Part shown: in pieces, positions 4,895 to 43,384 of the stretch
Layout: every line of letters starts with the position of its first letter
Numbering within the stretch: the stretch's first letter is position 1
Assembly: GCA_001803165.1 (NCBI GenBank)
Contig: MHAZ01000001.1
Coordinates: 186,001 to 250,000 of the forward strand
Direction of reading: 5' to 3'
DNA length: 64,000 nucleotides
From: Stygiobacter sp. RIFOXYC2_FULL_38_25
Lineage (GTDB): Bacteria; Bacteroidota; Ignavibacteria; Ignavibacteriales; Melioribacteraceae
The notes under the pieces: model-generated
Databases searched by the model: none
What the model was told of the DNA's origin: nothing
Seen by the model: the letters and a program-made list of their open reading frames with translations, nothing else
Translations under genes and position numbers: made by a program

Positions 4895-5407
4895 ATGAAG
4901 AAGAATCCGGAAAACAAAGTTTATAAAGCTTACTTGAATTCTCCGATTGGCTTAATAGAAATAACCGGCATCAAAGATGCAATTCTTAAAGTTTCTTTTG
5001 TAGAAGATAAGTTTGAGACCGAATTCAAAACCAATAATTATGTGAATGAGTGCGCTCTTCAGCTAGAACAATATTTTAATGGAGGAAGAAAAGAATTTGA
5101 GCTAAACCTTGAACCGGAAGGAACTGAGTTCCAGCGAAAAGTTTGGGATGAACTGCTTAAAATTCCATTCGGATATACAAAGAGCTATCTCTTCATTTCG
5201 AAAATGATCGGAGATACTTTGGCAATACGTGCAGCAGCCAAGGCTAACGGGCAAAACCCAATTGCAATAATTATTCCTTGTCATAGAGTAATCGGAAGTG
5301 ATGGAAGTCTGACCGGTTATGCAGGAGGTCTATGGCGGAAAAAATGGCTTCTTGAACATGAACAAAAATTTAGTGATGGGGAAAAACAGATGGAATTATT
5401 GTTGTAA
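4895..5407 (+). CDS. ogt: Methylated-DNA--protein-cysteine methyltransferase
   Basis: A 170-residue suicide repair protein that transfers the methyl group of O6-methylguanine (or O4-methylthymine) to its own cysteine. The active-site motif IIIPCHRVIG puts the acceptor at Cys129. The helix-turn-helix region before it (EFQRKVWDELLKIPFGYTKSY) and the GYAGGLWRKKWLL segment after it are typical of the ATase domain. The N-terminal domain is the short Ogt form, without the Ada regulatory part. It lies 40 bases after lexA in the same direction, in a DNA-repair neighbourhood (lexA, ogt, dinB). The following gene belongs to a repeat-bracketed cassette rather than to this operon. Confidence 0.95.
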   Translation: MKKNPENKVYKAYLNSPIGLIEITGIKDAILKVSFVEDKFETEFKTNNYVNECALQLEQYFNGGRKEFELNLEPEGTEFQRKVWDELLKIPFGYTKSYLFISKMIGDTLAIRAAAKANGQNPIAIIIPCHRVIGSDGSLTGYAGGLWRKKWLLEHEQKFSDGEKQMELLL

Positions 5408-5410
5408 AAA

Positions 5411-5437
5411 GTCATTAGGTAATTGGTTATTCAATTG
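5411..5437. repeat. Left inverted flank of four-helix-bundle cassette 1
   Basis: Starts GTCATTA (5411-5417) and ends ATTCAATTG (5429-5437). The same two blocks occur in inverted orientation after the gene, at 5839-5847 and 5865-5871. The arms are imperfect in the middle. They would bring the two ends of the cassette together as a stem. Confidence 0.5.
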
Positions 5438-5452
5438 TCTCAAGAGGTACAT

Positions 5453-5827
5453 ATGAAGTTGGAGGAATTGACTGTATATAACTTATCTATGGATTTAGGT
5501 GAACAAGTGTGGAAAATTGTTTTGGAATGGGAAAAACTCTCAAAAGAAACTATAGGAAAACAACTAATCCGTTCTGTGGATTCAGTTGCCGCAAATATCA
5601 GCGAAGGCTTTGGAAGGTATCACTATAGCGAGTCTAACCATTTTAATTATTATGCGAGAGGTTCTTTATATGAAACAAAGACATGGTTAACAAAAGCTTA
5701 TAACCGAAACCTCATCGATGACAATCAGTTCAACATGTTTATAAATGAAATAAATAATTTAGGCGTTAAGCTCAATAATTATATCAAATCCATTGGAAAG
5801 CAAAAACAATTGAAAACAACTGAATGA
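5453..5827 (+). CDS. Four-helix bundle protein (S23 / 23S rRNA intervening-sequence family)
   Basis: The 124-residue protein carries the family core LIRSVDSVAANISEGFGR followed by an aromatic-rich helix FNYYARGSLYETKTWLTKA. This matches the small four-helix-bundle proteins first seen as ORFs in 23S rRNA intervening sequences and related to the Avd accessory proteins of diversity-generating retroelements. They form pentamers; no enzymatic role is known. The frame is open further upstream, but ATG 5453 is preceded by AGAGGT (5443-5448), an adequate ribosome binding site. The gene is enclosed by imperfect inverted repeats (5411-5437 and 5839-5871) between ogt and yjbQ. A second, broken member lies at 15851-16252. 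Confidence 0.85.
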   Translation: MKLEELTVYNLSMDLGEQVWKIVLEWEKLSKETIGKQLIRSVDSVAANISEGFGRYHYSESNHFNYYARGSLYETKTWLTKAYNRNLIDDNQFNMFINEINNLGVKLNNYIKSIGKQKQLKTTE

Positions 5828-5838
5828 CAAATCACAAT

Positions 5839-5871
5839 CAATTGAATTACTACTTAATAACAATTAATGAC
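5839..5871. repeat. Right inverted flank of four-helix-bundle cassette 1
   Basis: Contains CAATTGAAT (5839-5847) and TAATGAC (5865-5871), reverse complements of blocks in the left flank at 5411-5437. Confidence 0.5.
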
Positions 5872-5876
5872 TTTAT

Positions 5877-15786: not shown

Positions 15787-15830
15787 GAATATTAAAGACG
15801 AACACGATCAAGATTAAGATCACGAAAAAG
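15787..15830. repeat. 44-bp direct repeat, copy 1, before broken four-helix-bundle gene
   Basis: This segment recurs at 16304-16347 with 40 of 44 identical positions (differences at two dinucleotides). Its AAGATCACGAA (15816-15826) also has an exact inverted copy at 16258-16268, directly after the gene. The repeat is rich in GATC/AAGA words, unlike the coding DNA around it. Confidence 0.85.
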
Positions 15831-15850
15831 AAAATGGGACTGAAATTATA

Positions 15851-16252
15851 ATGGAAGAAAAAGTATCGTATTATTTTGATCACGAAAAACTTAGAGTTTA
15901 TCAAAAGTCTATTGAGTTCATTGGTTGGATTGATAATCTTTTAAGTACGAATTTAGTCAAGGGTTCAACTGCTGATCAAATTCTTAGAGCCTCAGAATCA
16001 ATTGTTCTTAATATTGCGGAAGGAAACGGGAAATTTACTTCAAAAGATCGTTGTAGATATTTTGATATTTCGCGAGGCTCTGCTATGGAATGCGCTGGTT
16101 GTCTCGATGTATTTTTCGCTAAGAAAAAAATAAATTCTGTTGAATTATGTGAAGGTTAAGTTATCTTGAAGGATATTGTTAATATGCTGATGGGATTGAT
16201 AAAGAGCAATTCGGATAGAGCATATGAACCTGAAGTTGGATACGATAACTAA
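15851..16252 (+). pseudogene. Four-helix bundle (S23 family) gene with in-frame stop
   Basis: The first 102 residues show the family core ADQILRASESIVLNIAEGNG and RYFDISRGSAMECAGCLD. A TAA at 16157-16159 ends the frame early, but the same frame continues as ILKDIVNMLMGLIKSNSDRA and stops at TAA 16250-16252. This would restore a normal 133-residue protein with the last helix. A single nonsense change is the simplest explanation; a sequencing error is possible. The gene lies between two 44-bp direct repeats (15787-15830, 16304-16347) and an inverted pair. It separates the esterase from the ATP-grasp gene, as an insertion would. Confidence 0.75.
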
Positions 16253-16257
16253 TACCA

Positions 16258-16347
16258 TTCGTGATCTTGCTCGTAATCATAATCGTGCTCTTTTCTTCTA
16301 TTAGAATATTAAAGACGAATTCGATCAAGATTAAGATCACGAGCAAG
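16258..16347. repeat. Inverted flank plus 44-bp direct repeat copy 2
   Basis: TTCGTGATCTT (16258-16268) is the exact reverse complement of 15816-15826. 16304-16347 is the second copy of the 44-bp repeat of 15787-15830 (40/44). Further GATCAAGA-like words continue to about 16360. Confidence 0.8.
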
Positions 16348-16404
16348 AATAAGATCAAGAAAAAATATTTCTTTGAAAATATATCAATCACAAAAAGGTA
16401 GTGG

Positions 16405-32665: not shown

Positions 32666-33927
32666 TGGAACAGAGAAAACTCTACAAAACAATAGAATCG
32701 GTTGCTTCGAAGGATTTTACTTCCGATACAGATCTGCTTGCAGATGTATTAAAACAAATTATTAGTAACGAAGCTATCCAGCTTAAGGGCGGAAGAATTT
32801 GGAAGTTTGAACCCAGAAGAAAAGCATACAGGCTTATTTTCCAAACCGGCAAAGTCCAAAAGATTCAAGAAGATTTTCTTCTCTATCTAAAAGACTACCC
32901 ATTCTATGAACGAATTGCTCAGGAAAGAACAATCCTTGCCGATGAAACAAATAAGACTCTTATTAGCAAAGGAATTCTCAAATATTCTGCATCCGGAATT
33001 GGCAGAAAAATTAAAGTCGGAGAGAGGCGCTACTACGAATATTTGCTAGCTGTAAATAGCACTATGCTCAAAGAAAACCTTAGGGACACACTTAATATTG
33101 TTGCTACAGTTTTAACCAGCAAGTTGAATGAAAGATATCTCAGCCAATCTAGGAAGACTTTGATTGCTGACATTGATAAAGCAAAAGAAATTCAGCGCAG
33201 CATTTTACCCGAGCATGAATACCGCTTTCATAATTACGATGTTTTCGGGGTAACGCTTCCTGCACAGATTGTTGGGGGCGATTTCTACGATTACTTAAAA
33301 GTTGGTGAAGGTGAAGACCGTTTAGGAATTGTTGTTGGCGATGCAGCTTCAAAAGGTTTTGGCGCAGCAGCCGAAGCAATGTATATTTCCGGCGCAATTA
33401 GAATGGCAAGCAGTTTTCAAATTAAGATTTCTCTTATGTTCACGCGCTTGAATCAGCTCGTAAACAAAATTTTTAGCGATGATAAATTTGCATCTCTTTT
33501 TTATGGTGAGATTTCTGATGACAAAAAAGGATTGTTCCTTTTCGCAAATGCCGGACACAATCCGCCAATGTTCTATAGGAAAAAGTTTAACGAAATCACA
33601 ATGCTTCATTCAACCGGTCCATTACTTGGTCCGGCGCCAAACGCCAAGTTCGAAACAGACCATGTGAATTTTAGGAATGGAGACATTTTAGTTATCTACT
33701 CCGATGGTGTAGTAGAAGCTGCAAATGACAAATTTGAATTTTATGGTGAAGAAAAATTAGCTAATCTTATCTTGGACAATGTTCATAGAACTCCGAAAGA
33801 AATTTGCGCACTAATTCTTGAGGATGTTCAAAAATTCAGTACAAGCGACAGCCAATATCAAGATGATAAAACAATTGTGGTAATCAAGAGAAACGACAAG
33901 AATGAATCTAGTACAAAAAATATTTGA
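32665..33927 (+). CDS. PP2C-type (SpoIIE/RsbU) serine phosphatase with GAF-like domain
   Basis: A 420-residue phosphatase. The N-terminal 160 residues resemble a GAF-type sensor (LLADVLKQIISNEAIQLKGG, YYEYLLAVNSTMLKENLRDT). A short linker helix ends in AKEIQRSILPEH, the standard lead-in to the RsbU/SpoIIE catalytic domain, which shows GGDFYDYLKVG, GDAASKGFGAAAEAMYI, FANAGHNPP and YSDGVVEAAN with the metal-binding Asp residues. Such enzymes dephosphorylate anti-anti-sigma factors or other regulators. ATG 32665 overlaps the previous stop (TAATG). The 3' end overlaps the PduS-like gene by 26 bases. Confidence 0.93.
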   Translation: MEQRKLYKTIESVASKDFTSDTDLLADVLKQIISNEAIQLKGGRIWKFEPRRKAYRLIFQTGKVQKIQEDFLLYLKDYPFYERIAQERTILADETNKTLISKGILKYSASGIGRKIKVGERRYYEYLLAVNSTMLKENLRDTLNIVATVLTSKLNERYLSQSRKTLIADIDKAKEIQRSILPEHEYRFHNYDVFGVTLPAQIVGGDFYDYLKVGEGEDRLGIVVGDAASKGFGAAAEAMYISGAIRMASSFQIKISLMFTRLNQLVNKIFSDDKFASLFYGEISDDKKGLFLFANAGHNPPMFYRKKFNEITMLHSTGPLLGPAPNAKFETDHVNFRNGDILVIYSDGVVEAANDKFEFYGEEKLANLILDNVHRTPKEICALILEDVQKFSTSDSQYQDDKTIVVIKRNDKNESSTKNI

Positions 33928-35215
33928 TGCCGGTGTTGTAGGCGCCGGCGGCGCCGGGTTTCCAACTCATGTGAAAGCAAAATCGAGCGTGGAGTTTGTG
34001 CTGGCGAACGGCGCTGAATGCGAGCCGCTCATTCATAAAGATTTTGAATTGATGTGCAATTTTCCCGATGAGATTGTAAATGGTGTTGAGTTAATGACTA
34101 AGCAAACATCGGCAAAGAAGGCTTATTTTGGAATTAAAGCTAAGAATGTTGAAGCTGTAGATGAAATTGAAAAAAGAATAAAGGAAACCAAAACGGAAAT
34201 GTGCTTGCTTGGAGATTTCTACCCAAGCGGTGATGAATATGAATTAGTTTACGCTGCAACAAAAAGATTAATCCCACCGCACGGCTTACCTTTGGATGTT
34301 GGCTGTGTTGTGAACAATGTTGAAACATTCTACAACATTTCTCGGGCAATAGATGACAAACCCGTTACACAAAAATTTATTTCTGTTGCCGGGTGTGTTA
34401 AAAAGCCATCCTCTTTTTTTGTACCAATTGGAACAAGTTTTCAAGAATTGCTAAATCATGCCGGCGGTTCAACGGTTTCCGATTATGGAATTTTTGTGAG
34501 CGGAATTCTGATGGGAAAACTTACTTTCGATCTAACCGAAGTTGTTACTAAAACTACTAGCGGAATAATCATTCTTCCAAAAGAACATTATTTGATTAAC
34601 AGAATGGAAAGACCGAAAGCAAGCATGAACCGAATTGGTAAATCCGCTTGCGACCAATGTAGTTATTGCACGGAATTTTGTCCGCGCTACTTACTTGGCT
34701 ACGATGTTCAGCCTCATAAAGTTATGCGCTCGCTGGTATTTTCAACCAGCGGAGAAGCAGTTTGGAATCAGTATGCCGACCTTTGTTGCTCTTGCGGATT
34801 GTGTTCGCTCTATTCTTGTCCGGAGGATTTGTATCCGCGCGAAGCTTGCGATCAAGGGAAAGCTGAGCTAAAGAAACAAGGAATGATATATGAACAACTG
34901 AAGCCGGTAAAAGTTCATCCAATAAAAGAGGGAAGAAGAGTTCCACTGAAGCAGTTGATGAAGAGAATTGATGTACTTAAGTATGATAACCATACTCCAT
35001 ATGTAAAGGAGAGTCCTAAGCCGACTCAAGTTAAAATTCTTTTGAAACAGCATGTAGGCGTTGCTGCGAAGCCGGTAATTAAACTTGGTGCAATTGTAAA
35101 TGAAGGGACACTGATTGCGGACATAGAAGAAGGAAAACTCGGCTCCAGAATTCATGCGTCAATTAGCGGCAAAGTTACTCATGTCTCTGAAGAGTTTATT
35201 AGAATCACAGGATAA
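33902..35215 (+). CDS. PduS-like / RnfC-like flavo-iron-sulfur electron carrier
   Basis: A 437-residue protein. Residues 1-120 hold the Rossmann/FMN segment GAGGAGFPTHVKAK and NGAECEPLIHKDFELM. A SLBB-like stretch follows (SVAGCVKKPSSFFVPIGTSF), then two [4Fe-4S] motifs: CDQCSYCTEFCPRYLLGYDV at about 243-262 and CCSCGLCSLYSCP at about 297-309. The C-terminal lipoyl-like hammerhead ends with the GSRIHASISGKV turn. This is the PduS layout (about 450 residues), a cobalamin or electron-transfer reductase of bacterial microcompartments. A PduT-like shell protein follows, which supports that reading over RnfC of an Rnf complex. Start overlaps the PP2C gene by 26 bases. Confidence 0.85.
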   Translation: MNLVQKIFDAGVVGAGGAGFPTHVKAKSSVEFVLANGAECEPLIHKDFELMCNFPDEIVNGVELMTKQTSAKKAYFGIKAKNVEAVDEIEKRIKETKTEMCLLGDFYPSGDEYELVYAATKRLIPPHGLPLDVGCVVNNVETFYNISRAIDDKPVTQKFISVAGCVKKPSSFFVPIGTSFQELLNHAGGSTVSDYGIFVSGILMGKLTFDLTEVVTKTTSGIIILPKEHYLINRMERPKASMNRIGKSACDQCSYCTEFCPRYLLGYDVQPHKVMRSLVFSTSGEAVWNQYADLCCSCGLCSLYSCPEDLYPREACDQGKAELKKQGMIYEQLKPVKVHPIKEGRRVPLKQLMKRIDVLKYDNHTPYVKESPKPTQVKILLKQHVGVAAKPVIKLGAIVNEGTLIADIEEGKLGSRIHASISGKVTHVSEEFIRITG

Positions 35216-35220
35216 GAAGT

Positions 35221-35260
35221 ACCTCGCAAGGCACGCAAAGTCTCGCGAAGAACGCAAGGG
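35221..35260. repeat. Left flank of GxxExxY cassette (CGCAAAG-type repeat)
   Basis: Rich in ACGCAAAG and TCGCGAAG words. ACGCAAAG (35233-35240) has an exact inverted copy CTTTGCGT at 35671-35678, and further similarity runs through both flanks. Base composition differs from the surrounding coding DNA. Confidence 0.75.
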
Positions 35261-35265
35261 AAAAT

Positions 35266-35643
35266 ATGAGTGAAAACGAGATTTCAAAAATCGTCGTTAT
35301 AACTGCAATCGAGCTGCATAAATCACTTGGACCTGGTTTGCTGGAATCTGTTTACGAAAATTCTTTGGCATTTGATCTTAGAACAGAAGGTTTATCAGTA
35401 GAGCAACAAGTGCCAATGCCGCTTGTTTATAAAAATAATAAGTTCGAAGTAGGTTATAGACTTGATCTTTTAATAAACAAAAAAGTAATTATCGAATTGA
35501 AGTCGGTTGAGACATTATTGCCAGTACATTATGCTCAACTTTTAACATATCTAAAACTTTCTGAATTAAAATTGGGCTTGTTGATAAATTTTAATCAGAA
35601 ATTACTTAAAGACGGAATTCACAGAATAGTAAATAATTTATAG
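35266..35643 (+). CDS. GxxExxY protein
   Basis: A 125-residue protein with the family name motif GLLESVYENSL (residues 25-35) and the C-terminal nuclease-like pattern YRLDLLINKKVIIELKSVE (Asp, then Glu-x-Lys) of the PD-(D/E)xK fold. Its biochemical role is unknown. It lies between a PduS-like and a PduT-like gene, a pair usually adjacent in microcompartment operons, and is bracketed by CGCAAAG-type imperfect inverted repeats (35221-35260 and 35644-35681). It therefore looks inserted. ATG 35266 is preceded by AAGGGAAA. Confidence 0.9.
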   Translation: MSENEISKIVVITAIELHKSLGPGLLESVYENSLAFDLRTEGLSVEQQVPMPLVYKNNKFEVGYRLDLLINKKVIIELKSVETLLPVHYAQLLTYLKLSELKLGLLINFNQKLLKDGIHRIVNNL

Positions 35644-35681
35644 CCTCGCGATCTTAGCGTATCATTGCGTCTTTGCGTGAG
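35644..35681. repeat. Right flank of GxxExxY cassette
   Basis: Contains CCTCGCGATC, ATTGCGT and CTTTGCGT words that are reverse-complement matches to the left flank at 35221-35260; arms are imperfect. Confidence 0.75.
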
Positions 35682-35695
35682 AAAAGAGAGTAGTT

Positions 35696-36247
35696 ATGGA
35701 AATGAATTCAATAGGTTTGATTGAAATGACGAGCATTGCAGCGGGAATGCAAGCTGCAGATATTATGTTAAAGACTTCTCAAGTTCAGTTAATTCTTTCA
35801 CGAACAATTTGTTCCGGAAAGTATATTGTATTAATTGGCGGAGATGTTGCCGAAGTACAAGCAGCAGTTGATGCAGCAACTAAGCAAATAGATTTTGCCG
35901 TGATTGATACTTTTGTTATCCCAAGTGTTCACAAAGATATTTTCCCGGCGTTGTCCGGTCATTCGGAAATTAAAGCACTAGAAGCTCTTGGAATTATTGA
36001 ATCATTCTCAGTTGCATCATTAATTGAAGGAGCTGATGCGGCAGTAAAAGCTGCTAACGTTAAATTAATTGAAATACGGCTTGCTATGGCTCTTGGTGGA
36101 AAGGCTTTCTGCACATTAACCGGCGAAGTTGCTGCGGTACAAAGTGCTGTTGATTCCGGCGCAAAAGTTATTGCCGATAGAGGACTGCTTGTTAACAAGA
36201 TTGTCATTCCTCAGCCCCGTCCGGAATTACTTAGTGAAATGATATAA
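35696..36247 (+). CDS. PduT-like tandem-BMC shell protein
   Basis: A 183-residue protein made of two BMC domains: residues 1-90 (SIGLIEMTSIAAGMQAADIM, YIVLIGGDVAEVQAAVDAA) and 95-180 (ALGIIESFSVASLIEGADAA, KAFCTLTGEVAAVQSAVDSG). Such proteins form trimers that act as hexagonal tiles of microcompartment shells. In PduT the central pore holds a [4Fe-4S] cluster bound by one Cys per subunit; the stretch ILSRTICSGKYIVL places Cys39 at that position. Together with the PduS-like gene upstream this points to electron transfer across a shell, but no other shell or core enzyme gene is in the window. Confidence 0.93.
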   Translation: MEMNSIGLIEMTSIAAGMQAADIMLKTSQVQLILSRTICSGKYIVLIGGDVAEVQAAVDAATKQIDFAVIDTFVIPSVHKDIFPALSGHSEIKALEALGIIESFSVASLIEGADAAVKAANVKLIEIRLAMALGGKAFCTLTGEVAAVQSAVDSGAKVIADRGLLVNKIVIPQPRPELLSEMI

Positions 36248-39496: not shown

Positions 39497-42400
39497 TTAG
39501 ATGGAAATTTTTTCTATGTCTTCAAGGATAATCGTTTTCAAATCAACATCAGCTTTTTCGTAGATACTGAAAATCCTTTCTTCTTGATTTGTGATAGCAG
39601 AGTAAAGCATGTTTCGTGCAATGATACCGTTTTGGAAAATCTCAGTCCTTGCATGATAAAGTTTATCGAAGCGGTCAAGCAGTTCTTGCAAAGCACCTTC
39701 ATCCAAATTATAACCGTTCTTTTCGGCTATACTGGACGCAATGGCAAGCAACTGACGCGGGTTGTAATCATCAAATGTAAAAATATTAGGGAAGTAAGAA
39801 ATAATTCCGGGATGCGAGTCAATCATTTTACGCATTTCGCCCGGTGTTCCCGAAAGAATTAAAACAAATTTTCCTTTGGAATCATCCATCCGCTTGATAA
39901 TTGTTTCAACAGCTTCAGCACCAAACGGATCATCATCGCGGAAAAGGGAAGATGCCTCTCTAATAAATAGAGTTCCGCCGAGCGCTTGCTGCAAGAGTTT
40001 CTCTGTTTTTATAGTTGTTTGATCTTGATAACTTGCTATAAAATCAGAGCGGTCAACTTCAAGTATATGTCCTTTTTGTAAAACGCCAAGTTCCTTAAAA
40101 ATCTTGTTCATTAACTTGGAAACTGTCCTTTTACCGGTGCCGGGATTTCCAATGAAAATTGAATGAAGATTCCTTTCAAGCGATTGAAGTCCCTTTTCTT
40201 TTTTAAGCTGGGAGATTTTTGCAAAACTGATTAGTTTAAATACTTCTTGCTTTACATTCTCTAGTCCAACAAGATTATTTAGCTCATTAATTTCATTTTG
40301 CAGAACAAGCGGATCACCTTTTACTTCATAAGTTCTGGCTTCAACTTCACGGATTAAAACTTCGTTTATATCGCTTAGTTCTATTGTGTTTAATTTTTCA
40401 TCAGTGCGTTCACTAACCGGAATATCCGCAATACGAAGAAGAGTTTTCTGCTTTACCGAATCAAGAATATTTCTTACAATTCTTGCATTCCCAAACTTTT
40501 TGTCTCTTGTCTTGTAAACGTACTCAAAATGTTTTTTTAATTTGTCTTCAGCTTCTTTCGATAATTTTTTGTTCTCTCTATGTGTAGAGCGGCGAACAAT
40601 TTCGATTAACTCGTTTGGGGCATAATCTTCGAACGAGAAAGATTTACTAAAACGCGATTGAATTCCCGGATTGCTTGAAACAAACTTCTGCATCTCTTCT
40701 GTGTAACCGGCTGCAATAACGATAAATTTACCACGATCATCTTCCATTCGTTTCAACAAAATATCAATTGCTTCTTTGCCAAAGTCGCTGCCGGAATCTC
40801 CTTGTTTAGCAAGGGCGTAAGCTTCATCAATGAATAACATTCCACCTATTGCGCTATCAACCATGCTTTTAGTTTTCTCGGCGGTTTGACCAACAAAACC
40901 GGCTACCAAACCTTGGCGGTCGGTTTCAACCAAATGTCCCTTAGGTAAAATTCCTAGTGAGGAATAAATTTTGCCGATAATTCTAGCGACTGTTGTTTTT
41001 CCCGTGCCGGGGTTTCCGAGGAATAGAATATGCTCGCTAAAAACTTTCTTTATGTCTTCACCCTGTTCATTAAAGAAGCGGGCTAGTTTAACCATGTCTT
41101 CAACTTCTTTTTTGAGAGAAGTTAATCCAACTAGGCTGTTAAGTTCTTCCAACGCTTCTGTAAGCTGCTCTTCATTTATTGGAATGTAAACTTCTTTGCC
41201 GGAGCTTTTTGCAAAGCTCTTATTAATGACCTCCTCTGTAAAAGTAGTCATCGCTTCTTTGGTGCGTTTATCTTCCGGAAGTACTACACAAATTTTGCTC
41301 AGGTTTACTTTCGCGTTTTCAAAAAGCTTTCGGATAAGTCTCGCATTGCCGAAAGATTTATCTCTTGCCCGGTAAAGACTCATAAATTCTTTTTTTAGAA
41401 TTTCTTTTGCGCTCTTATCAAGAATGTAATCCTCTTTTTTGAGCAAGTCTTCGAAGATTAAAATCAGTTCATCCGGTGTGTAATCTTCAAAAACAAAAGT
41501 ATGGGTGAAGCGGGATTTCAAACCCGGATTCGAATTCATAAATGAATTCATTTCGTCAGTATATCCGGCAACTATAACAACGAATTCACCTTTGCGGTCT
41601 TCCATTCGTTTAAGAAGTATATCAATCGCTTCTTGCCCAAAATCATTTGTAGCGCCTTTCTTAACGAGTGTGTAAGCCTCATCAATAAACAGCACCCCGC
41701 CGATTGCATCGTTAATCAGTTTTTCAGTTTTCTGTGCAGTTTGACCGACATACTCTCCAACAAGAGCAGAGCGGTCAACTTCTACAACGTGACCATTCTG
41801 AAGAATTCCCATTGCGTAAAAAATATCGCCAAGCATTCTTGCGATAGTTGTTTTGCCTGTGCCCGGATTACCTAGAAAAACTGCGTTGATAGAAATATTG
41901 TCTTCCGCTTTCAAGCCAAGCCGCTTTCTCTCTTTCAAAAATTCTAGGTAAGAGACAAAGTTTTTAACCGCTTCTTTAATGTTAGAAAGTCCGGTGAATG
42001 AATTCAGCTCTGCCAAGAGCTCATTTAACGGGCGGACTTTTCTCGGCTCTCTGGTTCTCTCGGTAGTTTCATCGAAAGTTTTTTTACCAGGGGGCGCGGA
42101 AATTTCCTTTTGACGTTCCGGTTCTTCTGCAACTACAGTTGTGTTTATAACAAAATATCTTTCAGCAACTTTAAAGTTGCTAAGGTAAATCTCAACTTTC
42201 GCTTGCCCGTTCTTTGCTAGTTTACTTTTTCCCCAGGTCTGAACGTAAATCACGGAATCCCAATCTTTCTTTACATTTATCTGAAAGTTGTTGCGGTAAG
42301 TTTCAAAATCGTTAAAATACCAAACAGCAAAACCATCCAAACGTTTTTCATCCTTTTGGTAGAAATGATTGTTGAAGATTATTTCAGCCCCAAACTTTAT

Positions 42401-43384
42401 TGTGCCATGATCAAACTGTCTTGAGTAATTTCTGTTGCCGGTCTTAGCTTCATAATCAACATCAAATATTTTTATTGAGAACACATCCGCGTAATCGTTT
42501 GGATAGAAAAGGGAATCGTAGCGGTACTCAACCGGTTCGGAAACGATTGAGCGTGTTAATCTCTCTTTTAACTTTGTAATTCTTTTCGATGTAATCGAGT
42601 CTTGTTCTTTTTCAAGCTCGTTATACCTTTTTAGGTTGGAATAAACATTTATGAAACGATCATTGTCCTTAAACTTTGCTTGTAACTGCTGGGCTTTTTT
42701 AAGTGCAGGGCGAATCTGGAAAAGATGAAGCATAGATTCAAGCTCGATCAGTTCCGCTTCATTATCTTGCTGCTCTTCAAGAATCTTTCTTGCTAGAAGA
42801 AGAGAGAACCAAAACTCTTTGGCTTTTATTGCTTCGTAAGCTTGCTGGTGTGCAAATACCAAACCTTGTTCGGAAACAAGTTTTTTGATTTGAGAAATTG
42901 TTTTTGCTTTCTCAATCCAAGTGTGTAAATCTTTCCAATTTTTGTGTCTGCCTTCGTCTATAATTACAGCTAAATCAAGTGTTTGGCTTGCATCATCATA
43001 TTTATGGATTCCGGCGAGCGACCTTGCTTTGTTGAGATAAGACCAGGCTAAAGTTTCCTTCTGTTTATCTATGGATTGTTCAAGGTCGGCAATAGCGCCT
43101 TCAAAAATGCTCATGCGTGAAAGAAGATAAGCGCGGTAAACACGGGCTTTTACAGAATCACCTTTGAGCTCTACGGCAAGATTAGCAAACTCCATAGCTT
43201 TAACCGGATTACCATTCTCTAACTGAGCCCACGCCAAACAAATTGCTGCGTCGCTATCGTCCGGTCTTATTTGAAACACTTTTTCGGCTATTGGAAGTGC
43301 CAGCCTAAAGCGCCCATTCCAAAGGTGATCAAACGCCTCGGCTTGTAATCGGTTCAAATCCTCATCACTAGTAAAAAAGCTCAT
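39497..43384 (-). CDS. TPR protein with three CbbX/SpoVK-type AAA+ modules
   Basis: A 1295-residue protein. Residues 1-200 are TPR-like (ALPIAEKVFQIRPDDSDAAI, AWSYLNKARSLAGIHKYDDA), 200-440 a coiled-coil and beta region, then three AAA+ modules of the CbbX/EccA/SpoVK kind. Walker A GNPGTGKTT occurs near residues 503 and 788, and GNPGTGKRT near 1078. Modules 1 and 2 have the Walker B LFIDEAY and SRF arginine fingers. Module 3 has LFIREAS and PGIISYF, so its Asp and Arg finger are lost and it may be inactive. A TPR plus CbbX-like AAA layout recalls EccA of type VII secretion. It heads an operon with an ABC exporter. Client unknown. Confidence 0.9.
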   Translation of the reverse strand: MSFFTSDEDLNRLQAEAFDHLWNGRFRLALPIAEKVFQIRPDDSDAAICLAWAQLENGNPVKAMEFANLAVELKGDSVKARVYRAYLLSRMSIFEGAIADLEQSIDKQKETLAWSYLNKARSLAGIHKYDDASQTLDLAVIIDEGRHKNWKDLHTWIEKAKTISQIKKLVSEQGLVFAHQQAYEAIKAKEFWFSLLLARKILEEQQDNEAELIELESMLHLFQIRPALKKAQQLQAKFKDNDRFINVYSNLKRYNELEKEQDSITSKRITKLKERLTRSIVSEPVEYRYDSLFYPNDYADVFSIKIFDVDYEAKTGNRNYSRQFDHGTIKFGAEIIFNNHFYQKDEKRLDGFAVWYFNDFETYRNNFQINVKKDWDSVIYVQTWGKSKLAKNGQAKVEIYLSNFKVAERYFVINTTVVAEEPERQKEISAPPGKKTFDETTERTREPRKVRPLNELLAELNSFTGLSNIKEAVKNFVSYLEFLKERKRLGLKAEDNISINAVFLGNPGTGKTTIARMLGDIFYAMGILQNGHVVEVDRSALVGEYVGQTAQKTEKLINDAIGGVLFIDEAYTLVKKGATNDFGQEAIDILLKRMEDRKGEFVVIVAGYTDEMNSFMNSNPGLKSRFTHTFVFEDYTPDELILIFEDLLKKEDYILDKSAKEILKKEFMSLYRARDKSFGNARLIRKLFENAKVNLSKICVVLPEDKRTKEAMTTFTEEVINKSFAKSSGKEVYIPINEEQLTEALEELNSLVGLTSLKKEVEDMVKLARFFNEQGEDIKKVFSEHILFLGNPGTGKTTVARIIGKIYSSLGILPKGHLVETDRQGLVAGFVGQTAEKTKSMVDSAIGGMLFIDEAYALAKQGDSGSDFGKEAIDILLKRMEDDRGKFIVIAAGYTEEMQKFVSSNPGIQSRFSKSFSFEDYAPNELIEIVRRSTHRENKKLSKEAEDKLKKHFEYVYKTRDKKFGNARIVRNILDSVKQKTLLRIADIPVSERTDEKLNTIELSDINEVLIREVEARTYEVKGDPLVLQNEINELNNLVGLENVKQEVFKLISFAKISQLKKEKGLQSLERNLHSIFIGNPGTGKRTVSKLMNKIFKELGVLQKGHILEVDRSDFIASYQDQTTIKTEKLLQQALGGTLFIREASSLFRDDDPFGAEAVETIIKRMDDSKGKFVLILSGTPGEMRKMIDSHPGIISYFPNIFTFDDYNPRQLLAIASSIAEKNGYNLDEGALQELLDRFDKLYHARTEIFQNGIIARNMLYSAITNQEERIFSIYEKADVDLKTIILEDIEKISI

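Follow-up and report, generated by a model that had tools for sequence, protein, structure and literature searches.

A GxxExxY gene between pduS-like and pduT-like genes as one copy of a candidate one-gene cassette with degenerate word arrays at its ends

The window analysed here is a 64 000 nt stretch of a Stygiobacter genome (G000:C1:186001-250000, where G000 is the window's own genome). Between a PduS-like and a PduT-like gene, a short GxxExxY gene is enclosed by two inverted arrays of a degenerate 7 nt word, CRCDRAK. The same anatomy is found at many loci of several phyla, the two arms of a copy match each other privately, and the corresponding sites of congeners are empty or differently filled. 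Gene-less hairpins made of the same words are dispersed almost only in genomes that carry a GxxExxY gene. The existence of this cassette class is, in our view, practically certain, and the cassettes are very probably mobile. Our preferred reading, to which we give an even chance, is that the window feature is one copy of a selfish cassette resembling a REPtron, with a Cas4/RecB-like nuclease and not a HuH enzyme.

In this reading, each copy consists of a GxxExxY gene flanked by two inverted arrays of CRCDRAK words with spacers of mostly 1–4 nt, and it has its own word variety and spacers, common to its two arms and rarely to other copies. According to the proposed mechanism, the arrays would fold into a hairpin on single-stranded or extruded DNA. 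The nuclease would recognise the hairpin by its word class and cut it, and the cut would allow cassettes, and with them solo hairpins, to be copied into small gaps between genes, the gene-less hairpins travelling in trans. The chances that the GxxExxY nuclease acts directly on the words are about balanced. Cleavage, the form of the DNA and the route of copying are inferred, and so is the role of the nuclease as the mover of the cassette.

Results and discussion

The GxxExxY gene and its neighbours

The arrangement described in the earlier note, a GxxExxY gene co-oriented with PduS-like and PduT-like neighbours, is real according to the ORF calls and domain models (Table 1). The 125-residue product matches TIGR04256 with 144.2 bits (cut-off 35) and PF13366 (PDDEXK_3), its sole Pfam match, with 139 bits (cut-off 22), and is thus a GxxExxY family member by the curated cut-offs. 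The host genes are assigned less sharply. The best NCBIfam model of the upstream product is RnfC, barely above its cut-off, and the downstream product reaches 128 bits with TIGR02526, below the cut-off of 250. No relative of the window protein was found by a PDB sequence search at E 1, and no defence or phage family was matched with PADLOC and PHROGs at E 0.01. The Rfam search of 35150-35760 at E 1 gave zero matches to a known RNA family.

Table 1. Positions of the cassettes, arms and host genes in the window
Feature	Position	Strand	Details
S23 (23S_rRNA_IVP) cassette (L016)	5405-5874; gene 5453-5827; arms about 5405-5437 and 5839-5874	+	PF05635, 94.7 bits
S23 cassette with degenerate gene	15788-16352; gene about 15851-16192	+	PF05635, 69.1 bits; one in-frame TAA
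PduS/RnfC-like upstream host gene	33902-35215	+	Complex1_51K, Fer4_17 and RnfC_N domains
Upstream arm	35223-35259	+	CGCAAGG, CGCAAAG, CGCGAAG, CGCAAGG within 35225-35259; 2-3 nt spacers
GxxExxY gene, 125 aa, predicted PD-(D/E)xK nuclease	35266-35643	+	ATG 35266, TAG 35643; TIGR04256, PF13366
Downstream arm	35644-35680	-	inverted CGCGAGG, CGCTAAG, CGCAATG, CGCAAAG within 35644-35678
PduT-like downstream host gene	35696-36247	+	two BMC domains, by domain models

Arms of the window copy

The upstream arm is separated from the PduS-like stop codon by 7 nt, and the downstream arm begins directly after the stop codon of the GxxExxY gene. In each arm, two of the four words fit CRCDRAK strictly, and the other two are near-words. 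Perfect inverted matching extends over 9 nt at most, in CACGCAAAG/CTTTGCGTG (35232-35240 / 35671-35679). The inverted repeats claimed earlier for these flanks are therefore present, and stem-forming ends are enriched in the class as a whole (GxxExxY and S23), but the window copy taken alone shows no more matching than chance, as its arm-to-arm score of 11.0 is reached by 25% of swapped arms. Folding of the RNA around 35215-35690, which had been proposed as a check, was performed on 35205-35700 and gave no better fold than shuffles (z -0.95). Three two-word arrays occur in the window versus 1.6 expected, and the two other than the GxxExxY cassette are not convincing hairpins.

The orthologous element of the congener G002 was compared with the window element over both arms, with one spacer indel left uncounted. 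In this single pair of elements, the words keep 52 of 56 bases and the spacers 8 of 13 (p 0.009). The slower change in the words would fit selection on them.

Judged from the window copy only, the feature could be an accessory gene that does not move and has a terminator-like hairpin on either side, similar to other copies by chance or composition. The arm score, which is not significant against swaps, is in agreement with this explanation. It is contradicted by the held-out enrichment, the private arm matching, the reversed-pattern controls and the empty sites given below, and is scarcely credible.

Word arrays around GxxExxY genes

The eight matches in the own genome correspond to seven GxxExxY genes, of which one is split. 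By eye, each gene is surrounded by mirrored arrays, and the word varieties differ: CACAGAG, CGCAGAT (two copies), CGCAAAG (two copies), CACTAAG and CACGGAT. The split seventh copy (L007/L008, G000:C6:473029-473377) is in two frames, and its CGCAAAG-type arms are still there.

The word CRCDRAK was derived from the first 36 loci, namely the own seven and 29 others from the same phylum. Therefore, only the later sets of loci test it. All loci were chosen by protein score, independently of their flanks. The set from named genomes comprises 72 loci (80 minus three duplicates and five short ones), and the further set comprises 58 loci, as two of 60 were unparsed. Two or more words in each of the converging arms were observed at 27 of the 36 training loci (opposite sense, one), 30 of the 40 held-out loci (six), 37 of the 72 loci from named genomes (five) and 28 of the 58 loci of the further set (six). 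Pooling of the three later sets gives 95/170, versus 0/58 for control ORFs of the training and first held-out loci, which have at least two words upstream in one case and downstream in eight. The search for the flank words next to other GxxExxY genes, suggested in the earlier note, was thus successful.

The matching between the two arms gave a similar result. An arm score of at least 14, a cut-off picked after the first sets were seen, is reached by 65% of 147 GxxExxY loci versus 2% of 58 controls; in the further set it is reached by 36/58 loci versus 2.8% of swaps. About one third of the GxxExxY loci are below this score. Outside Bacteroidota, it is reached, among others, in Desulfobacteraceae (L135), a betaproteobacterium (L171), Nostoc (L184), Roseiflexus (L200), Anaerolineales (L202), Acidobacteria (L196), Lentisphaerae (L195) and Planctomycetota (L152), taxon labels that come in many cases from metagenome bins and may be wrong. 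Most spacers that separate one strict word from the next (278 of 314 counted) measure 1–4 nt.

The arms of a locus average 17.6 with each other (39 loci), versus 9.45 in 66 pairs of arms swapped within a genome (p 1.4e-14). When the six intact GxxExxY copies of the own genome are compared in a 6 x 6 table, the diagonal is highest in every row. The arm pairs of L155, L185 and L201 are near-perfect over some 40–80 nt, and others are worn. According to these scores, both arms of one copy would have a recent common origin, distinct from copy to copy, with the word itself retained.

Occupied, empty and refilled sites

The spacer between PduS and PduT was compared at the 30 best PduS loci, own included, after a search of 146 genomes, 132 of which matched. 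At 27 of these 30 loci no gene lies between the two, and the statement that they are normally neighbours is correct. An insert of the length of a GxxExxY gene is present at three loci (own, G002, and G050 of another genus); the spacer is 9–30 nt at 13 and 45–194 nt at 14. Among the spacers of 45–194 nt, gene-less word hairpins were recognised by eye at L027, L031 and, in worn form, L038 and L029. Two further spacers, L032 and L028 (G040 and G078), contain other palindromic repeats (TGTCATGCTGAACTTGATTCAGCATCT...GGAATGAC and TGTCATTGCGATCCCG...), which are apparently separate intergenic repeat families.

In the window's genus, the gene is present in two of six genomes, and the remaining four have spacers of 9, 9, 15 and 18 nt. 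Of the empty site and target duplication that were to be looked for at the pduS-pduT locus, the former is thus found in four of the six genomes, and the latter was not recognised. Neither outcome that the earlier note named as speaking against mobility (the gene kept by all close relatives with no empty site, or flanks not found elsewhere) was observed. Neither a target-site duplication nor a clean boundary was recognised in any comparison with congeners, the genomes compared being different species.

Slots of 17 loci of the own genome were also queried in the congeners G001–G003, some of which were uninterpretable or without a match (e.g. L001 and L003). The slot of L005 is empty in G001 and G002. 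The slots of L002 and L011 are empty in G001, and in G003 they hold an S23-type array and a different S23 gene, respectively. The slot of L019 holds a GxxExxY-type hairpin in G001, and that of the first S23 cassette of the window (L016) is empty in G003. The same gene is kept in the slots of L011, L015, L017 and L020 in G002, and in that of L015 in G003. As to the second S23 cassette of the window, G002 carries the same degenerate cassette, and its slot in G001 (L313) holds repeated palindromes of the type CACTCCGGAGTG instead.

Dispersed gene-less hairpins

The pattern CGCAAAGN{1,4}CGCDRAG was counted in 296 genomes of a single phylum, with the reversed pattern as control; the counts include the arms of the genes themselves. 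In the 151 genomes with a GxxExxY gene, 1,925 matches were obtained (control 97), versus 167 (control 196) in the 145 genomes without. At least six matches occur in 62/151 and 3/145 genomes, respectively. Within 21 mixed families, which comprise 232 of the 296 genomes (115 with and 117 without the gene), the permutation p is 2e-4, the floor value; four small families (f7, f8, f22, f32) have the higher mean in the genomes without the gene. A second pattern, CACAGAGN{1,4}CACDRAG, gave 1,039 matches (control 72) versus 48 (control 22), and at least six matches in 47 genomes with the gene versus one without. As in a REPtron, the dispersed palindromes are nearly confined to genomes with the cognate gene. 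These counts indicate that hairpin dispersal probably depends on GxxExxY. The three negative genomes with at least six word pairs speak against a nuclease-driven model. A Y1 transposase as the driver was rejected: the word pairs number 146 versus 8 for the control in 21 genomes with GxxExxY and no Y1, and 98 versus 127 for the control in 79 genomes with Y1 alone.

In the own genome, the CGC pattern has 47 matches versus two for the control, and two of the seven genes use this variety (by eye). Thirty of the 47 places were read and correspond to 23 distinct sites: two gene cassettes, two sites in long ORFs and 19 outside ORFs, by a simple test with ORFs of at least 90 aa. Plain hairpins of the inside-out type (inverted words, AT-rich loop, words) were found at L259, L269, L278, L280 and L283, and L265 is a right-side-out hairpin without a gene. 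At L085, L105, L115 and L148, a gene lies between two whole hairpins in direct repeat. A search of G091, the genome of L085, with the L085 element, in which 40 of 129 first-look candidates were scored, gave at least nine further matches at no fewer than eight places, of hairpin parts only. The gene-less hairpins behave like non-autonomous partners of the cassettes.

In this respect they resemble MITEs, as short gene-less hairpins (L250:4471-4553 and L265) have ends like those of the gene-bearing element. Unlike MITEs, the conserved terminus is limited to the word type and frequent TTTAAC-like tips (by eye), and no target duplication was recognised.

One such hairpin was found inside a structured RNA. 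In G091, the P2 loop of a Moco riboswitch (RF01055; L250:5570-5828, minus strand) holds a gene-less word hairpin of 114 nt (TTTAACCACAAAG...CTTCGTGGTAAA). The riboswitch was the sole match in an Rfam search of five other loci. The insertion of the hairpin in an RNA loop is reminiscent of the intervening sequences in rRNA helices.

The protein and its link to the words

In the alignment of proteins, from which L007 (the split copy) and L068 (in-frame stop) were excluded, G22, G24, E27, D67, E77, K79, Q91, G104, N108, F109 and R120 are invariant in 56/56 sequences, and Y30 and Y95 are nearly so. The AF2 model of the window protein has a pLDDT of 94.8. The structure search with this model gave SSO0001 first (E 4e-4), which we take to be a Cas4, and lambda exonuclease next (E 4e-3). 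VIA-align gives SSO0001 a Z value of 9.7 and Hjc one of 7.3, which is in a range that may mean a common arrangement only. The PD-(D/E)xK pattern ascribed earlier to the product is therefore confirmed, both by the invariant D67, E77 and K79 (the D...ExK site) and by the fold match.

Cas4/RecB-type nucleases have their motifs in the order GxxE, D, ExK, QxxxY, and the window protein has them in the same order. Judging from the model, its fold appears to be Cas4/RecB-like. The differences from Cas4, lambda exonuclease and RecB nucleases are the size of 125 aa, the one-gene cassette life and the lack of an Fe-S cysteine. Cas4 is characterised by Fe-S cluster cysteines; the translation of the window gene contains zero cysteines, and the protein is therefore no Fe-S Cas4.

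The words change along with the protein. Protein distance and word profile are correlated at 111 loci (Mantel r 0.33, p 0.0005; 0.335 and p 0.001 with GC removed), a correlation to which the linkage of gene and arms contributes a part by itself. On the tree of 147 proteins, the CAC/CGC class changes 20 times, versus a mean of 48 and a minimum of 39 in 100 shuffles. The word class is inherited with the protein lineage. Residue 122, the next but one to R120, is Ile in 41 of 49 proteins with CAC words and Val in 50 of 60 with CGC words. In the held-out set, CAC loci have 12 Ile and three Val, and CGC loci one Ile and 17 Val, so that the rule is right in 29/33 of the loci with either residue; six further loci have other residues or mixed words. 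As the underpowered independent-pairs test has only four supported pairs, this rule perhaps reflects lineage, not specificity. The class of the solo words matches that of the resident protein weakly (p 0.048; 32 and 34 genomes, with part of the genes in each).

PD-(D/E)xK homing enzymes are known, and the cassettes could also be propagated by homing: GxxExxY would cut word-bearing or empty alleles, repair would copy the cassette in, and the solo hairpins would be by-products of repair between arrays. The fold with its intact active site, the sporadic presence and the empty sites in congeners are in agreement with this. Dispersal to many unrelated intergenic sites is contrary to allelic homing, and no nuclease is known from S23 cassettes. 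Homing is thus quite improbable.

S23 cassettes and intervening sequences

Of the 15 S23/IVP genes of the own genome, two lie in the window. The first S23 cassette of the window has a weak arm score of 11.0 and fills its intergenic gap almost from stop codon to start codon. The second has inverted word arrays and, on both sides, a 69 nt direct repeat (AATATTAAAGACGA...) of the hairpin arm. An arm score of at least 14 is reached at 9/15 own S23 loci and at 13/29 held-out loci, versus 1.4% of swaps. In the own 15 x 15 table, an off-diagonal value is the best in four rows (L014, L023, L019 and, as a tie, L022); the L019 arm fits L020 better than its own partner. The words of the S23 arms are of another family than those of the GxxExxY arms and have a strict period of 7 nt; the autocorrelation is 0.47 (lag 7) and 0.46 (lag 14), versus 0.29 in shuffles. 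The GxxExxY arms have a modest peak at lags 8–10 (0.29–0.33 versus 0.27–0.28). The claim that GxxExxY and S23 genes belong to one class of small cassettes, each with a single gene and with ends that can pair, is strongly supported by the arm matching and the held-out enrichment.

The S23 design is also kept at 6/13 loci of 11 genomes in which no GxxExxY gene was detected, one of the 13 being truncated by a contig end. The S23 family is, to our knowledge, not known as a nuclease. The design as such thus does not require a nuclease. For the nuclease-driven model, these cassettes pose the main difficulty, and they suggest that the design can do without a nuclease of its own.

In another explanation, the hairpins owe their spread to a different factor (host repair or replication, or an enzyme not yet recognised), and the genes of both families are cargo with the best chance of survival between two hairpins. 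The S23 cassettes, also those in genomes with no GxxExxY gene detected, are in favour of it, as are the genes between two whole direct-repeat hairpins, as at L085, and the absence of a clean transposition footprint in the congener comparisons. Against a passenger role, word pairs are at chance level in the 145 genomes without GxxExxY and follow the gene within families, Y1 transposases fail to explain them, the word class tracks the protein tree, and the catalytic residues are invariant. We consider such a role unlikely. As to the suggestion in the earlier note that the product acts in the cassette's own movement, the invariant catalytic residues, the near restriction of the hairpins to genomes with the gene and the word class following the tree fit it; the unrecognised target duplication and the S23 cassettes of the same design count against it.

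According to PMC4990558, tandem heptamers (GACAGAT) directly precede the S23 ORF of the Coxiella 23S rRNA intervening sequence; this sequence is removed by RNase III and is discussed as a transposition remnant or as a mobile element with a mobility ORF. The rRNA-gene inserts of CPR bacteria include the S23/IVP domain, as a passage of PMC11270868 describes; GxxExxY is not mentioned in that article by a text search. The Coxiella intervening sequence and the S23 cassettes can be read as sharing their anatomy, and they may have a common descent. Both are one-gene inserts with stem-forming ends, and the heptamers of the former (PMC4990558) correspond to the 7 nt period of the S23 arms. The cassettes differ in that they are intergenic, many per genome (15 S23 and seven GxxExxY in the own genome) and in one family nuclease-coding. 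The window cassette sits between the pduS-like and pduT-like genes, not within an rRNA helix.

The likeness allows an explanation at the RNA level, in which the arms pair in the transcript, RNase III excises the insert, the operon mRNA stays working and the arms are selected as RNA. The period of the S23 arms and the Coxiella case (PMC4990558) are consistent with it, and so is the hairpin in the Moco riboswitch. The neighbours of GxxExxY cassettes are mostly co-oriented with them (109/127 upstream and 109/127 downstream; control adjacent pairs 152/199). On the other hand, no G.U preference is seen, with 68 G.U-type versus 67 A.C-type mismatches at 53 GxxExxY loci and seven versus nine at 11 S23 loci. 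The fold of the window transcript is no better than shuffles, and RNA pairing itself leaves the dispersal and the empty sites unexplained. This explanation is improbable.

To return to the selfish cassette, a wider form of this reading can be proposed. GxxExxY and S23 genes would represent two branches within a single large class of selfish cassettes with one gene each. The ends of these cassettes would be private arrays that match each other, recognised by word grammar and hairpin shape, not by a fixed sequence. The classical 23S intervening sequences would be members landed in rRNA. In Bacteroidota and in several further phyla, a major source of the repeats between genes, so far unrecognised, would be these cassettes and hairpins, and the GxxExxY branch would be driven by a Cas4/RecB-like nuclease co-evolving with the word. 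We hold this wider proposal tentatively, at slightly less than an even chance.

Comparison with known elements

REPs have many gene-less copies in intergenic DNA. In the REP/BIME-RAYT system (REPtron), as here, a small gene is flanked by palindromic repeats with many gene-less intergenic copies, and the gene lineage co-varies with the repeat type (PMC8266576). The enzyme there is a HuH Y1 transposase (PF01797) and the repeat a conserved palindrome, whereas here a PD-(D/E)xK nuclease is encoded and the array of degenerate words is private to each copy. Integron gene cassettes consist of one gene and a variable palindromic attC site, which is more conserved in structure than in sequence. The present cassettes likewise have one gene with a variable palindromic site; unlike integron cassettes, they have arms on both sides of the gene.

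Since the enzyme differs from that of a REPtron, no fixed palindrome is present and the site is not rRNA, the class is set apart as new from both REPtrons and intervening sequences. By analogy, it would work like the former and look like the latter. The GxxExxY family is scarcely named in the PMC literature searched; a passage of PMC8934634 names it in another context. No description of these cassettes was found in the open-licence PMC literature, which excludes most subscription journals, and the class is apparently undescribed.

If the preferred reading is true, the GxxExxY family would obtain a function and a life cycle, and many small intergenic hairpins would be explained. The 23S rRNA intervening sequences, long without an explanation, would be tied to a far larger intergenic population. 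The ends of the mobile element would be set by the repetition of a degenerate word and by the private match of the two arms, not by a fixed terminus. The co-inheritance of gene and word makes this reading directly testable in vitro with short oligonucleotides.

Elsewhere in the window, an ORF of 1295 aa at 39497-43384 (minus strand), presumably AAA-like, has three similar stretches that each bear a Walker A motif (GNPGTGK).
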